From Halobacteriales archaeon SW_8_68_21 (lineage in GTDB: Archaea; Halobacteriota; Halobacteria; Halobacteriales; Haloferacaceae): 64,000 bases of DNA. The DNA lies in assembly GCA_003023405.1 (NCBI GenBank), contig PXST01000002.1, positions 12,108-76,107 on the forward strand, given 5' to 3'. Position 1 is the stretch's first letter. Every line of letters starts with the position of its first letter. Shown one piece after another: positions 37,237 through 63,752 of this stretch. The translations under genes and the position numbers were made by a program. A model generated the notes under the pieces. That model was not told where the DNA came from, did not search any database, and was given only the letters and a program-made list of their open reading frames with translations.

Positions 37237-37308
37237 AGCCTAGGCCGGAATTTGAATCCGGGGTCTCGTCCTTACCAAGGACGCGCTTTACCGCTAAGCT
37301 ACCCAGGC
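37237..37308 (-). tRNA. tRNA-Thr(GGT)
   Basis: GCCTGGG/CCTAGGC acceptor stem, anticodon loop TTGGTAA, T-arm GATTCAAATTC; cloverleaf folded by eye. Confidence 0.92.
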
Positions 37309-37610
37309 ACTACGCGTGTGTATACAGCCGATTTCCGCTCTCTACATCCAATCCTATTACACAGCCGTATAAGAATGTGGTGAAAGCCACCGACTGTGCC
37401 GTACGGTGACGTGCGAGTAAAATAATAAGAGATGAACCGGCTGACTCTTCCTGCTCGATGAGTCGAGCTACACGATTGAAACAGGTTGAGTGCTGAGGAC
37501 TCTCTTAGGGGGCTGATTTAATATACTAAGACCGGAGCATTCTATACAGGAGCCGTGTCCCACGAGATAGAAAAAATGAATGTACATAATATACAATTTG
37601 TGTGTGAGAG

Positions 37611-38465
37611 ATGGAACTGAAATACGAGGCCACCGAAGACGAGACATTTTACAGAGCGTACTTAGGTGACGCTCTAAATATGGATGAGGTCATCTCAGAC
37701 AATCAGATCGACCTCATTGTAACCTCTCCGCCGTATAATATTGGGAAAGAGTATGAGGAAGTGATGGCGCTCAACGATTATTTAGAGTTTATGCGCCAAT
37801 GGATGTTGAAGGCCGAGGAGAAATTGGCAGAAGATGGTTCGTTCTGGCTCAACATCGGATTTCGGAAAGAATCGGATGGTCGCCAGTACGTTCCGTGGGA
37901 ATATGATCTCTATCCGATTATCCGTGATGAAATGGAGATCTCGCTTGTACAGCAAGTCATTTGGCACTACAAGGCGGGAGTAAACTGCCGTCATAGACTC
38001 TCACCACGAAAGGAGACATGGCTATATTGCGTATCTGATCTTGATAACTATACATTTAATCTGGATGACGTTCGTGTCCCAGCGAAGTATCCGAATCAAA
38101 AAAAGAACGGTGAGCTGAAAGTCAATCCGAAAGGAAAGAACCCCGGAGACGTATGGGATATTCCGAAAGTTACGTCTGGAAAGGGTAGGGCATCGCCTGA
38201 ACGAACAGATCATCCTGCTCAGTATCCCGAAAACGTAATTGAACGTATCATCAAGGCAAGCTCAGACCCCGGCGATGTGATTCTTGACCCATTCCTTGGG
38301 AGTGGGACGGCAGCGAAGGTTGCGCGAGATCTTGGTCGGAGCTGTATCGGTATCGAATTGGATGAAAACTATATGGACGAGATCATCAACCCTCGCGTGT
38401 TTGAAGAATACGAGCCGCCAAAAGGAGAGGATGACGAGCAGATGAGTCTCGATGAACTCTCCTAA
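37611..38465 (+). CDS. Type II DNA methyltransferase (beta-class amino-methyltransferase)
   Basis: LIVTSPPYNIGKEYEE (motif IV) before DPFLGSGTAAKVARDLGRSCIGIELDENY (motif I). Confidence 0.92.
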   Translation: MELKYEATEDETFYRAYLGDALNMDEVISDNQIDLIVTSPPYNIGKEYEEVMALNDYLEFMRQWMLKAEEKLAEDGSFWLNIGFRKESDGRQYVPWEYDLYPIIRDEMEISLVQQVIWHYKAGVNCRHRLSPRKETWLYCVSDLDNYTFNLDDVRVPAKYPNQKKNGELKVNPKGKNPGDVWDIPKVTSGKGRASPERTDHPAQYPENVIERIIKASSDPGDVILDPFLGSGTAAKVARDLGRSCIGIELDENYMDEIINPRVFEEYEPPKGEDDEQMSLDELS

Positions 38466-39319
38466 GAATCGGTATCCGTAGTTAGAGCCTCAACCTCAAG
38501 ATCATCGCGCTCCATCGTTAGGGTATTTCGGGGATACTGCTTGACCTTTCGATAGACCTTCTCAAGATCACTATCCGGGTCTTCTACAGCATCGTATGCA
38601 ACGAGGAACTCCCCAACGGTCGAAATATCATACTGAATAAGGAAGGGACGGATATCTTCAATCGTTGATGGCCCTATCATATACACCAGTTCGAGCGGCG
38701 CATTAAGCAAGTATTCTCCATCAACGACTCGGAGTTTGTGCTTATAAACCTCTGAAGGAAGTGTCGCCGCTTGCCCTGTGGCGGCTGATTGTCCAGTCCA
38801 ATCATCAAAGTCAATCCACCCAAATCGTATGAGAAAGAGGTTGTACGAGGGGGGTAGAATTTCCTCAGAGATATGAACGTTTGATGTAATATAGAATCCG
38901 CTTTTTGACTTCTTCCCGTCCGACCCCGAATCTTGGGCAAAGCTCCTGTTACCGAATACTTTGTCATTTACCTGACCGGACATCTTGATCTCGGTTGAGT
39001 ATTCGGGGTTCTCTGTGTGAGCTAAGTCTTTTTCTGCGTCTGACCCCTGACGCCACGCAGAGTCGATTTTTTGAATCTCGTTTGCGATGATTGTTTCCAA
39101 AAACGCCCCGGTAGTCTGTGCCCCAACAGGAACATCCTCATATATTAGAATATCATCCGAGGGTTCCCCAATACGTGTCTTAAGAAGTTTGTTGTAGGAA
39201 CGGAGTACGAGATTATGGATTTCGTCCAGAGTTAGTGGGTAGTCCTCGATTAACTCGTCTCGCTTATTCGACCATTCACTTGGAGGAAGAGTCGCAAAGG
39301 GGTCTTGCACATCTATCAA
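38462..39319 (-). CDS. Putative type II restriction endonuclease (possibly ScaI family)
   Basis: GAFLETIIANEI, YSTEIKMSGQVNDKVFGNRSFAQ, KSKSGFYITSNVH; convergent with and overlapping the methyltransferase stop. Confidence 0.7.
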   Translation of the reverse strand: MIDVQDPFATLPPSEWSNKRDELIEDYPLTLDEIHNLVLRSYNKLLKTRIGEPSDDILIYEDVPVGAQTTGAFLETIIANEIQKIDSAWRQGSDAEKDLAHTENPEYSTEIKMSGQVNDKVFGNRSFAQDSGSDGKKSKSGFYITSNVHISEEILPPSYNLFLIRFGWIDFDDWTGQSAATGQAATLPSEVYKHKLRVVDGEYLLNAPLELVYMIGPSTIEDIRPFLIQYDISTVGEFLVAYDAVEDPDSDLEKVYRKVKQYPRNTLTMERDDLEVEALTTDTDS

Positions 39320-39346
39320 GTAACTGAATGCGAATGTGTAGTTTAC

Positions 39347-39397
39347 TGTACATATTGTAAAGAATGTACATTTTGTACAGAAAACGAATAGTGTACA
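39347..39397. promoter_or_regulatory. Cluster of four TGTACA hexamers in divergent intergenic region
   Basis: TGTACA at 39347, 39365, 39374 and 39392; a further TGTACA at 37581 upstream of the methyltransferase. Confidence 0.55.
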
Positions 39398-39416
39398 GAG
39401 GAGTGCCAGTTGGATA

Positions 39417-39593
39417 ATGAGTAAAACCGTGAAAGCCCGCGAACACTACGGGGCTGATTCACTCGATCTCACCATTCCCACAGAGGTCGTTGAGAACTGT
39501 GACTTATCGCCGGGAGATATCTTTGAGGTAAAGGTAGAGGGTGTAGAAGATGAGGTGACGATTTCGTACGAGTTAGTCCATCGTTCCGGTTAG
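39417..39593 (+). CDS. AbrB/MazE-like small DNA-binding protein (58 aa)
   Basis: MSKTVKAREHYGADSLDLTIPTEVVENCDLSPGDIFEVKVEGVEDEVTISYELVHRSG. Confidence 0.65.
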   Translation: MSKTVKAREHYGADSLDLTIPTEVVENCDLSPGDIFEVKVEGVEDEVTISYELVHRSG

Positions 39594-39612
39594 GTCGTCA
39601 CCTTCGCGTTCC

Positions 39613-40806
39613 TCACCAGATCTGCTCCACCGCAGACGACCGTGTTTCCGAATCCGAGTGTAGATACTTCATCGTGGTCGTCACGCTCTTGTGCCGAAGT
39701 TGCTCTTTGGCATGGTGTGGCCCGACGTGATTCGCCCAATGAGTCGCCACGCCGTGCCGAATCGAGTACCACGTCACGTTCTTGTTCGTCGGAATCGAGA
39801 TGTTCCCCTCCTCGATGAGTCACTTCAGGAGGTAGTTACACGACTTCGAGCTGTACTGCGTGGCCTTCTTCGTGGGCCATAGCTCGTCTCGGTCTTGGTA
39901 CTTCTCGTAGGTCGCACGCTCATCGAGCCAGCGACTCAGAACGTTGACCGTCCGATTCTTTAGAGTACAGTTCCAGTTCGCCTCGTTCTTCGTGGATTCC
40001 TCTTTTGAAATGTTCAGCTCGTGGGATTCCAGATTTACCCAATCCACCGTCGCCCGACCCACCTCGATGGGTCGAAGCCCGGTGTCGAGGGTAACGGCGA
40101 TCAGCGATGGAACTTTCCACGAGTTCGCCTTCTTGAACTCCTCCGGCCCGATCTCTTCTTTTACAACCTTCTCACGTCGTGCGAGGTAGGTCTTGATGCG
40201 ATTTCGTTCCTCGGGCGACACCGAGTGGTAGCTCTTGAAGAAGTCGTATTTGAGCGCGGCGCTGTATAGCTGTTTGAACGCGCCTCGATGTAGATAATCA
40301 CGCTCCTCGCCGTTCGCTTGGCTCAGGTCGAGGTCGGGTTCCCATTCCCAATCTGTGCCGTGAGTGTGGTTATGATACTTGAAGTACCGCTTGATTACCT
40401 TGATGTGATAGAGAACGCTGGAGTCGATCATCGAGTCCGACATATTCAGCACACGGATGAACCGATCTGCCTCTGCCGGGATGAGTTCCGTCGTGTACCG
40501 CTCCTCGTAGTCCCATAGCCAGCGGAAGATAGTCTCCAGCTTGTAGCGGGTGGACTTCAGGGTGGTGTCGGCCAGCCCCTCGCCCTTCTCGGGGTTCTTT
40601 CCGTAGGTGGCGAGCCACGTCAGCACTTCCTGTTTGAAGTCCCGGTAGTCCCCGAGCATATTCACGCCGAACTGCTCTAAGTCCTCTTTCGTTCGCTTAC
40701 TCACAAGCGGGAAGGAGAACTCGACGTTATCGGGCGCGGGTGGGAGCGTTTGGCTGTTTCCGACGCTTGATGGGAGGTTATCGAGTGGGTCGTCGCGGTT
40801 CACCAC
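39613..40806 (-). pseudogene. Tyrosine integrase interrupted by an in-frame TGA
   Basis: ORF 39820-40806 ends ...NYLLK*; same frame continues LIEEGNISIPTNKNVTWYSIRHGVATHWANHVGPHHAKEQLRHKSVTTTMKYLHSDSETRSSAVEQIW*, containing the RH..H, LRHKS and Y elements. Confidence 0.9.
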
Positions 40807-40989
40807 GCCTGCTCACCACCAAGTTTGTGTGTCTTGACGATTCTTCGAATCGAAATACGGCGGTCTGTTGCCTGTGTAGCGTTGTCGAACATTTGCTCGT
40901 ACCTTCTTGCGTTTGCGAGAAGAACGGAAAATGGGGCTTTAGGGCCGGGAAGCTACGTTTATGATTTACACGTCCCTTGGCTCTTCATA

Positions 40990-41030
40990 GTCCTTACCAA
41001 GGACGCGCTTTACCGCTAAGCTACCCAGGC
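40990..41030 (-). repeat. Orphan 5' part of tRNA-Thr (att site)
   Basis: Perfect copy of bases 37268-37308, lacking the 3' half. Confidence 0.92.
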
Positions 41031-44335: not shown

Positions 44336-45004
44336 TCAGCGGCCGAACCGACGCTGTCTGTTCTGGTATTCCAAGACTGCGCGGAGGTACTCGCGTCTGC
44401 GGAAGTCCCGCCAGTTCACGTCGGTGAAGTAGAGTTCGGCGTACACCGACTGCCAGATTGCGAAGTCGGAGAGCCGCTCGGCCCCAGTCTTGATCACGAG
44501 GTCTGGCTCCTCGGGGAACAGCAGGCGGTCGGCCACGTCGGCCTCGTCGATTGTCTCGGGAGTTATCTCCCCGTCCGCCACGTCGTGTGCCAATTCGCGG
44601 ACCGCGCCGGCGAACTCCGCCTTCCCGCCGAGACCGACGAGGATCCGGACCGGGGCGTCCGGGCCACCGGGGTCGAGCGAGTCGCCGGCGGGTCCCGCGG
44701 TCGGCTCGTCGGCGTCCGGGCCTCGGACCGCGGTCTCCGCGGGGGCGTCGAGCCGGCGTAGCTCGCGGACCAGCGTCGGGGCGACCGCCCGGTCGAGGAC
44801 GGAGACGGAGACCGTGACGCGCTCGGCCCCGTACTCGAACGCCCAGCCGATCGCCGACGACAGCGTGTCGAACGCGCCGGCGGCGAGGAGGTCGCGCTCC
44901 GTGACGACGAGCGCGACGTGCGCCGGCGGCGCGGCGTCGTGGAGGCGGTGGCGCGTCGCGAGGTACGCGTCGTAGAGACCCACGTGAGAGCGATCCGCTC
45001 GCAC
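44336..45004 (-). CDS. Divergent undecaprenyl-diphosphate synthase (cis-prenyltransferase) family protein
   Basis: C-terminal PDLVIKTGAERLSDFAIWQSVYAELYFTDVNWRDFRRREYLRAVLEYQNRQRRFG. Confidence 0.8.
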   Translation of the reverse strand: MRADRSHVGLYDAYLATRHRLHDAAPPAHVALVVTERDLLAAGAFDTLSSAIGWAFEYGAERVTVSVSVLDRAVAPTLVRELRRLDAPAETAVRGPDADEPTAGPAGDSLDPGGPDAPVRILVGLGGKAEFAGAVRELAHDVADGEITPETIDEADVADRLLFPEEPDLVIKTGAERLSDFAIWQSVYAELYFTDVNWRDFRRREYLRAVLEYQNRQRRFGR

Positions 45005-45033
45005 GTATAAATGGCTTCCCGCCGACGAGGGCG

Positions 45034-45722
45034 GTGTTCAGATAAGGATTGAAAGCTGAGGCGGTACGTTTTCAAAGTGATCTATGCCCGAAAATGACCG
45101 CCTCAGCGGCTGTTTAGACGAGATCAATTTAGAGTTTATGTAGCGAGAAGCAACACCGCGGCTGTTGATGAAGCTCAGTATTCAGCTCCATTTAGCTGGA
45201 CTCTCACTTTCGAATACTATTCGTTTCTTGAGGTATTTGGTGTTAATCGAGTTCGATCGACCGTTCATAACTGGGTTCACAAGGCCGATCTACAGCCAGA
45301 ATCTGGCCGGAGCCCGAATCACGTTGCGGTCGATGAGACAGTGATTCGACTCGACGATGAATAGTATTGGCTGTACGCTGCTGTCGATCCAGAAACGAAC
45401 GATCTGCTCTATACACAGCTTGAGCCAACGACGAATAACGCTCTCGCAGATCGGTTTTTCGCTGATCTCCGTGACAAACACGATGTTGATGACGCAACTG
45501 TTCTCGTTGATGGATCAGCCTCACTTCAGCGAGCCTGTCGCAAACACGACCTCGATTTCAGATACGAACGACATGGAAATCGAAACAGCGTCGAACGTGT
45601 CTTCCGTGAGATAAAACGCAGAACTATGAGTTTCTCAAACTGTTTCAGCAACGCCGAAGCAGAAACTGCTAACGAGTGGCTGAGATCGTTCGCTTTCGCA
45701 TGGAATCAGCTTATCTGAACAC
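45034..45722 (+). mobile_element. Decayed IS6-like insertion sequence
   Basis: 13-bp inverted ends GTGTTCAGATAAG (45034-45046) and CTTATCTGAACAC (45710-45722); interrupted DDE transposase VAVDETVIRLDDE*YWLYAAVDPET...RFRYERHGNRNSVERVFRE. Confidence 0.88.
45084..45717 (+). pseudogene. IS6-like transposase, multiply disrupted
   Basis: MPENDRLSGCLDEINLEFM*REATPRLLMKLSIQLHLAGLSLSNTIRFL; TAG at 45141-45143, frameshift after IRFL, TAG in DDE*YW. Confidence 0.88.
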
Positions 45723-45767
45723 TACCCCGACGAGGGGTTTAATTCGTCGACGCACCTACCGGAGGCG

Positions 45768-61877: not shown

Positions 61878-61990
61878 GTGCGGTGGCGCGTGCCTCCGAG
61901 CGGTCGCCACCGGCGACCGCAAGGAGCACCGCGCGAGGGAGTCCACAGCGAGCGTCTGCCCGCCTCGCGGCTGGGGCTTCGGCGGTCGTG
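61878..61990. repeat. Dispersed structured repeat, copy C
   Basis: GTGCGGTGGCGCGTGCCTCCGAGCGGTCGCCACCGGCGACCGCAAGGAGCACCGCGCGAGG...GGCTGGGGCTTCGG. Confidence 0.6.
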
Positions 61991-62183
61991 TTCTCGACAG
62001 CGACTACGTCGTAGCGAGCGGCCGAACCGCTTCGAGAACGTTCACGCCGGAACCGCACCACCACGCATCACGTACTGTTTCCGGGACAGCGGCGTCGTCG
62101 GTCCCACCGGTACGATATCCGGCAGCCGCGTATCGCCCCCCTTTCGGAAGGATTAAGAGAACGAGCGGCTTTCAGTTAGGTGC

Positions 62184-62256
62184 GGGCCGGTGGGGTAGCT
62201 TGGTATCCTTCGGCCTTCGGGTGGCCGTAACCACGATTCAAATTCGTGCCGGCCCA
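62184..62256 (+). tRNA. tRNA-Pro(CGG)
   Basis: GGGCCGG/CCGGCCC acceptor stem, anticodon stem CGGCC/GGCCG with loop TTCGGGT, T-arm GATTCAAATTC. Confidence 0.92.
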
Positions 62257-62313
62257 CTACCCGATTATACTCTTTATTGGATACTATTCGACGATATGTT
62301 CAACATCAGGTCA

Positions 62314-62733
62314 TTAGCATTTGGACCCATCCATCAATATTTCTTCATGTCTACCGTATCTAATGTTGATATCGATTTCTTCGTCAAAATCTCCTTGTCT
62401 TCCAACGCAATCAGCAGTCCCCTCAATAGACTTCACTTCGTCCCCATTGAGGAAGAGCTTAGCCGTGTAATCAACACCGGTAGGGACATTAGAGACAGCA
62501 TCTGGTTCTATTCTTGAATACGGGTTGTCTGGGCTTCCAGATCGTAATTCAAATTCCTGATCAAGAACCGTCGTACCAAGTATCTCAATTTGTACTTGAG
62601 GGCTACACGACTCTTCTCTATAATTTCGAAATCTGAGTCCAACTGTTCCGAATGCTGGAATCGATGTACATCCAGCCAAGCCGGATACTATCGATACAGT
62701 ACCCAGATGTATTAAATGACGACGTGAGATCAT
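62314..62733 (-). CDS. AT-rich predicted lipoprotein, unknown function
   Basis: 139 aa with lipobox LAGC; composition clearly lower in GC than flanks. Confidence 0.6.
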   Translation of the reverse strand: MISRRHLIHLGTVSIVSGLAGCTSIPAFGTVGLRFRNYREESCSPQVQIEILGTTVLDQEFELRSGSPDNPYSRIEPDAVSNVPTGVDYTAKLFLNGDEVKSIEGTADCVGRQGDFDEEIDINIRYGRHEEILMDGSKC

Positions 62734-62954
62734 ACCTTAACTGCTTGATCTAGGCATAAATTTTCTCTGCTATATTTTAAGAGAAGACAGAAAGTCCCAC
62801 ACGCTCAGACTATCGACGAATTTCGTCTCGCTCCGATTCTCGTCACTCGTTTCTCCCCGTACACCGACCCCGAAAGCGACTGGGCCCAACAATTCGAAAC
62901 GGTCCTACTCTCTCGCCCAGCAACCACTTCCGACTGGGGACCCTGAATCGATCG

Positions 62955-63752
62955 ATGTCAATCGAGACCGTCGCGGGCGTCGACTGGGCGGGCGGCGCGT
63001 GGATCGCAGTCGTGTTCGACGGAGACAGTGATCCGACATGCCGCCTCGAAGCGGATCTAAAAGCCCTCTGGAACGACGGCGTCGACCGGATCCTCGTCGA
63101 CGTGCCGATCGGCCTCCCCGACGACGCCGAGACGCTGGCGAAACGCGAGGCGGTCGACGCGGCCGCGCGGGCGGCCGCCGAACGTCCGAGCAGCGTGTTC
63201 CCCGTGCCCTCGCGCGGAGCGTGCGAGCTGGCGCGCGACGACGCCGACTACGAGACGGTGAGCGAGCGGAATCGCGCCGACCTCGACAAGGGACTCAGCC
63301 GGCAGTCGTACCACATCGCGCCGGCGGTCGGTGCGGTCGACGCGTTCCTCCGCGAAGACGAGGCGGCGCGGGAGCGCGTGATGGAGGCACACCCCGAGGT
63401 GTGTTTCCGCGGCCTCAACGGGTCGCCGCTCGACCGCTCGAAGACAACGGCCCGAGGCGTCGGCGAGCGCCTCGACGCGCTCGACGGCCATCTTACGGAT
63501 CCGGGTGCCACGCTCGGCCGGATCTGTCGGGAACTGGTCGACGCCGAACCCGGGACCGCAGCGGGCGATTCCCCGGACGAAGGGGTGACCGCCGACCCCA
63601 CCGTCGACGACGCCGTCGACGCGCTCGGGCTGGCGGTGGTCGCCCGCCACGCCGGCGACGAACTCCGATTCTTGCCCGGGGACGCGACTTACGGAGACAG
63701 CGAAGGGATCCCGATGCGAATGGCCTACTGGAGCGACGAGCCGCTGGCGTGA
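62955..63752 (+). CDS. DUF429 domain protein
   Basis: VAGVDWAGGAWIAVVFDGD, DVPIGLPDD, MEAHPEVCFRGLNG. Confidence 0.88.
   Translation: MSIETVAGVDWAGGAWIAVVFDGDSDPTCRLEADLKALWNDGVDRILVDVPIGLPDDAETLAKREAVDAAARAAAERPSSVFPVPSRGACELARDDADYETVSERNRADLDKGLSRQSYHIAPAVGAVDAFLREDEAARERVMEAHPEVCFRGLNGSPLDRSKTTARGVGERLDALDGHLTDPGATLGRICRELVDAEPGTAAGDSPDEGVTADPTVDDAVDALGLAVVARHAGDELRFLPGDATYGDSEGIPMRMAYWSDEPLA

Follow-up and report, generated by a model that had tools for sequence, protein, structure and literature searches.

In the window, by which we mean the whole 64,000-nucleotide stretch analysed here, a 3,681-bp segment is enclosed by two identical 41-bp direct repeats, one of which forms part of an intact tRNA-Thr(GGT) gene (Table 1). 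Apart from this pair, exact repeats of at least 25 bp occur in the window only as two local ones, whose copies are separated by 27 and 51 bp. The insert has a GC content of 0.496 compared with 0.677 for a 741-kb sample of the same assembly, and its flanks are syntenic with those of relatives in which the site is empty. The original prediction had described an AT-rich restriction-modification (R-M) element in tRNA-Thr, bounded by this repeat and carrying a methyltransferase (MTase), a candidate restriction endonuclease (REase), an AbrB-like protein and a tyrosine integrase. Repeat, base composition and gene content were all recovered, with a weak match for the AbrB-like protein. That the segment is an integrated one is borne out by the empty tRNA-Thr sites with the same flanks that we found in relatives, and by the REase, which was present in this genome alone among 391 sampled haloarchaeal genomes; the closest relatives do not carry the segment as stable core genome lacking an att duplication. 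Passed over in the prediction were an in-frame TGA in the integrase gene, 9-bp iterons ahead of the R-M genes and the fact that what is duplicated is the 5' half of tRNA-Thr(GGT) and not its 3' half. Insertions targeted to tRNA genes mostly duplicate the 3' end of the tRNA. One full tRNA-Thr(GGT) copy was found in the host assembly, a draft that is 80% complete, and this is the copy completed by the left repeat.

Table 1. Features of the tRNA-Thr(GGT) locus in the window (+, forward strand; -, reverse strand; dot, no strand assigned)
Feature	Position	Strand	Remarks
Intact hybrid tRNA-Thr(GGT)	37237..37308	-	ARAGORN; element-derived 5' half joined to chromosomal 3' half
41-bp att repeat, left copy	37268..37308	-	tRNA nt 1-41
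Element leader upstream of the tRNA	37309..37425	-	One attP arm plus putative promoter
Left arm-type integrase site (putative)	37327..37343	-	-68 from G34; repeats the right arm site in inverted orientation
Most conserved leader core TTCAYCACATTCTTATACG	37366..37384	-	Putative TATA region
Iteron copies before the MTase gene	37581..37595	.	
DNA methyltransferase, cognate of the REase	37611..38465	+	PF01555 6e-54; TSPPY ... DPFLGSGT order
ScaI-family type II restriction endonuclease	38462..39319	-	PF09569 RE_ScaI 1e-45
9-bp iterons TGTAMANNN	39347..39379	.	Between the REase and AbrB-like genes
58-aa AbrB/MazE-like protein	39417..39593	+	Putative R-M controller; weak match
Tyrosine integrase, HF2-virus type	39613..40806	-	Broken by in-frame TGA 39820-39822
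Right arm-type integrase site (putative) CCCATTTTCCGTTCTTC	40919..40935	-	+62 from G34
41-bp att repeat, right copy	40990..41030	-	Truncated 5' half of the tRNA, downstream of the native promoter
Native tRNA-Thr promoter box TCGAAACCCCTAAA	41057..41070	-	Now precedes the truncated tRNA and the integrase

Two further regions of the window are low in GC. Positions 61900-63000 lie beside a tRNA-Pro(CGG) gene and hold a lipoprotein-like ORF, and no second piece of tRNA-Pro was found in the neighbouring contig stretches examined. A second, short stretch at 45000-45750 has a GC content of about 0.5.

The MTase is of the N4/N6 type and also matches type II MTase models, and its gene overlaps tail to tail with that of the REase. 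A PF09569 endonuclease next to its cognate MTase places the pair among the ScaI-family type II R-M systems. The REase has an additional C-terminus of ~85 aa which gave no match in Pfam. A scan of IMG/VR for the REase returned nothing, and its only plasmid matches belong to a ScaI-type pair on E. coli plasmids with the same tail-to-tail order, which also provided the best plasmid matches of the MTase. An AlphaFold model of the REase alone was discarded (pLDDT 43). By analogy with the ScaI family AGTACT is the putative target, and the system presumably restricts DNA. In the host AGTACT occurs at 0.60 of the expected frequency versus 0.63 and 0.80 in two relatives, and depletion is therefore not clear; depletion of AGTACT or TGTACA in 741 kb of host sequence was set aside as not decisive. 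In the same host sample (L156-L195) GGCGCC is found at 0.04 of expectation, and CTCGAG, CTAG and TGCA are strongly depleted as well. GGCGCC is also depleted in genome G016, and in G026 it is not among the lowest. The AbrB-like assignment is weak both in sequence (Pfam E 0.026) and in fold (Foldseek E 0.1). The iteron units, of which 0 are expected by chance in the window, have a related pair before the MTase gene at 37581, and the AbrB-like protein may take the place of a C protein as controller of the R-M genes.

Compared with those of haloferacalesviruses (HF2-like tailed haloviruses), the integrase shows about 63-65% identity, and members of its family occur in 49 halovirus records, 41 of them at >60% identity. 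The closest integrase is an intact one from Halogeometricum limi (NZ_FOYS01000003; 79% identical). With this protein as query, a single TGA was again seen at the same position in the window's gene. The part beyond it holds the C-terminal motifs (YSIRHGVATH ... Y) and matched PF00589 separately. The TGA was read in one sequence from a draft assembly; it predicts that the window's copy has lost integrase activity. Because the integrase is truncated, the island is probably fixed and this copy stranded. The idea that the element moves by integrase alone therefore does not fit this copy, in which the nonsense codon precedes the C-terminal R..H..Y motifs. Moreover, an integrase alone cannot transport DNA from cell to cell.

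When the ends of the element are joined and read in tRNA orientation, two inverted arm sites flank G34 of the tRNA, at -68 and +62 in the window, at -68 and +61 in H. limi, and at -80 and +63 in the haloviruses HRTV-5 and Serpecor1. The distances are thus largely kept, though the tRNA identity runs to opposite sides of the core, the haloferacalesvirus attP carrying nt 16-72 of the same tRNA-Thr. The arm sequences differ between element and virus. Kinship in sequence and a shared attP arm geometry assign the integrase to the HF2 type, with tRNA nt 1-41 instead of the tRNA-Thr 3' part in its attP. In the HF1/HF2 group a partial tRNA-Thr beside the integrase acts as attP, and two proviruses reside in tRNA-Thr genes (PMC7230728). 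For HF2 a single promoter upstream of attP has been described for attP and int, with a mapped start at 40936 (PMC8707807); by coordinates this start lies 81 nt before G34, just ahead of the arm site. A pattern scan of viral contigs for a 5'-type attP yielded one contig (L226), which was rejected as it has a full tRNA followed by int, the 3' mode. As a separate observation, six HF-group viral segments (L085-L090, 66 kb) lack 48 of the 64 hexamer palindromes, which fits the avoidance reported in PMC7230728.

At the same tRNA two modes of integration are seen among haloarchaea. In the 3'-type, represented by 15 chromosomal integrases (63-69% identical), the tRNA-Thr upstream of int is intact and still has DUF7114 and the native promoter box on its 5' side; the other end, where found (G056, G040), consists of tRNA nt 17-72. 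The layout in the window is reversed: the truncated 5' half is beside DUF7114, followed by int, with the intact tRNA at the far end. H. limi carries a sibling element of 2.3 kb with the same 5' layout, a 45-nt repeat and an intact int. The remaining cargo of this mini-element comprises two small hydrophobic ORFs of 124 and 89 aa (L125:10422-11059), for which Pfam, PHROG and PADLOC gave no match. In another genome, G315, both ends of an 11.5-kb segment with a 41-nt 5' partial of the tRNA were identified, and no int of this type was found inside the segment. In the tree the 5'-type integrases form one clade (97/89; 95/92 with the remnants of G160 and G212 added to the window and H. limi), separate from the 15 chromosomal 3'-type and 7 viral integrases. 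Support for the joining of the 3'-type rows is not strong, and the tree gives the switch no direction. In G010 (L065:4425-7128) tRNA-Thr is flanked by a 5'-type leader with an orphan MTase at one side and by a different integrase (36%) at its 3' side, so that insertions seem to have reached this gene from both directions.

The sequences upstream of tRNA-Thr follow the same division. TCGAAA is found about 40-46 nt upstream of the tRNA in 27 of 29 loci of relatives, and the two loci lacking it are a leader locus (L010) and a one-base variant (L015). All 15 3'-type loci have the CGAAAC box and none has the leader motif. Ahead of the truncated tRNA copy the native box is present in the window, in H. 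limi and in G315. A leader homologous to that of the element precedes the intact tRNA-Thr in 14 genomes (the host itself, G010, H. limi and 11 others, with one genome sampled per species), which is a lower bound because the leader search misses divergent leaders; that of H. limi was detected via its integrase. Conservation of the leader peaks at TTCAYCACATTC(T/A)TATACG, after which the arm site comes. Of full tRNA-Thr(GGT) copies, 13 of these genomes showed exactly one, located behind the leader; in the 14th (G365) the contig stops inside the tRNA. Since the HF2 start maps just before the arm site, we infer that the leader is the int promoter of the element and that the tRNA is now transcribed from it. 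The leader could instead be mainly an integrase-binding arm. Between its TATA region and that of HF2 there is an offset of about one helical turn. An equivalence of the two TATA boxes base for base was dropped, their positions differing by about 12 nt.

The integrase is preserved to different degrees in these genomes: H. limi has an intact gene, that of the window is interrupted, and in G160 and G212 a C-terminal remnant of 123 and 53 aa, respectively, is left. The other leader genomes whose sequence covers the region from DUF7114 to the leader showed no int of this type there. In G252, G363 and G191 the leader alone lies between DUF7114 and the tRNA, and in G106, G363 and G303 a CGAAAC box is kept between DUF7114 and the leader, as expected if cargo had been lost from between. 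An MTase other than the window's (about 370 aa; PADLOC MTase_II 5e-173) adjoins the leader in G010, G096 and G106, and fragments of it occur in G160 and G315. Genes for DNA modification are therefore a recurrent cargo. Over 302 bp, the DNA of the G160 int remnant is 90% identical to that of the window's integrase; as G160 belongs to another family, this indicates transfer between families.

We read the segment as an integrative element whose tyrosine integrase is of the HF2-virus type and whose cargo is a ScaI-family R-M system; it probably exchanged the promoter of its target tRNA and is now probably fixed (probability about 0.8). In the mechanism that we propose, attP would be composed of a core, the tRNA anticodon stem-loop, between the two inverted arm sites. 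The recombination chemistry is assumed to take place at the anticodon loop, where a crossover would join the element leader and the tRNA 5' half to the host 3' half and yield an intact gene. The same crossover would leave the host promoter with a truncated 5' half, pointed at the integrase, and the promoters would therefore probably be exchanged. The leader, as the counterpart of the mapped integrase promoter region of HF2, would then drive an essential tRNA, and the tRNA promoter would face int. Its R-M genes, together with a need for the leader, probably keep the island in place. Beyond this locus, we consider it rather probable that a clade of halovirus-type integrases, unlike its sisters, regenerates the 5' and not the 3' half of the tRNA and thereby replaces its promoter in a way that loss of the element does not undo, and that promoters of element origin now drive tRNA-Thr(GGT) in about a dozen haloarchaeal species, the majority of which lack an integrase.

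An ordinary 3'-end tRNA island, with the native promoter kept and the repeat as the usual 3' duplication, would match the mode of the 15 relatives at the same tRNA and of the haloviruses. However, the repeat comprises nt 1-41, the intact tRNA lies at the end away from DUF7114 and the native box precedes the truncated copy, which makes this explanation highly improbable. It is also unlikely, though less remotely so, that the leader is an alternative native promoter of some lineage, captured by an element or spread by homologous recombination, and that the presumed scars are not insertion scars. Three genomes (L234-L236) with the leader beside DUF7114 and no cargo would agree with this, as would the 8 of the 11 other leader matches that belong to one family. 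It is contradicted by the CGAAAC box between DUF7114 and the leader in G363, G106 and G303, by the integrase remnants (G160, G212) and the 5' tRNA remnant (G315) at the expected place and by the integrase arm site within the leader.

The remaining alternatives concern mobility. A minimal R-M island that still moves, by readthrough of the stop codon or with a related integrase acting in trans, would account for att repeats that are perfect to date; a close intact integrase exists in H. limi, and another integrase at 36% identity is present elsewhere in the host genome. But the TGA cuts off the C-terminal catalytic motifs and no cognate second integrase was found in the host assembly, and we regard continued mobility as improbable. 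A little less probable still is a satellite of an HF-like virus, moved by the integrase of its helper and carrying R-M genes as anti-virus cargo. The integrase family and the tRNA target are shared with these viruses, the arm positions are similar, and AGTACT is absent from the 66 kb of viral segments. Nevertheless, the arm sequences of element and virus differ and int is the only virus-derived gene seen; since the viruses avoid 48 of 64 hexamer palindromes AGTACT is not special, and its avoidance as a mark of pressure by this R-M type was rejected as unspecific.

If promoter exchange as proposed is correct, each integration swaps the promoter of an essential tRNA and the replacement cannot leave with the element. 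This would offer a testable case of a mobile element's promoter that was taken over by an essential tRNA gene and outlasts the element. The sister 3'-type members at the same tRNA allow the 5'/3' switch to be studied by comparison.

The element also adds a ScaI-type R-M system to haloarchaea. The corresponding pair on E. coli plasmid NZ_CP104531 is 43% (R) and 47-50% (M) identical with the same tail-to-tail genes, but has an HTH controller where the element has a divergent AbrB-like gene and iterons, and the element's REase carries the C-terminal extension. With Haloferacalesvirus (HF1/HF2 group) the element shares the integrase family, the tRNA-Thr(GGT) target, the order attP then int, the inverted arm sites and a promoter upstream of attP (PMC7230728, PMC8707807), whereas the viral attP regenerates the 3' half of the tRNA and that of the element the 5' half. 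Promoter switching has been described for the ICEKp1 integrase (PMC13023037), where in the integrated state a host tRNA promoter likewise faces int. In that system it is the terminator side that the host tRNA loses, its own promoter being kept, in contrast to the loss of the promoter here. The closest precedent is pTN3 of Thermococcales, which integrates in the 5' half of a tRNA that then loses its native promoter (Cossu 2017, PMC5495485). In a 2021 review pTN3-like integrases were called unique in archaea (Badel 2021, PMC8371274), and the elements described here would be a second archaeal case of 5'-half integration, which in the open-licence papers covered had been described in archaea for pTN3-like plasmids alone (PMC8371274). 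Both supply the 5' half of the tRNA with a 41-bp core, and in both the tRNA is regenerated but severed from its own promoter (PMC5495485, PMC8371274). The pTN3 integrase is suicidal, being split on integration, and targets tRNA-Leu, whereas the element targets tRNA-Thr, has R-M cargo aboard and its att lies outside int. Because int is unsplit by att and its kin are the HF2-type viral integrases, these elements are not pTN3-like.
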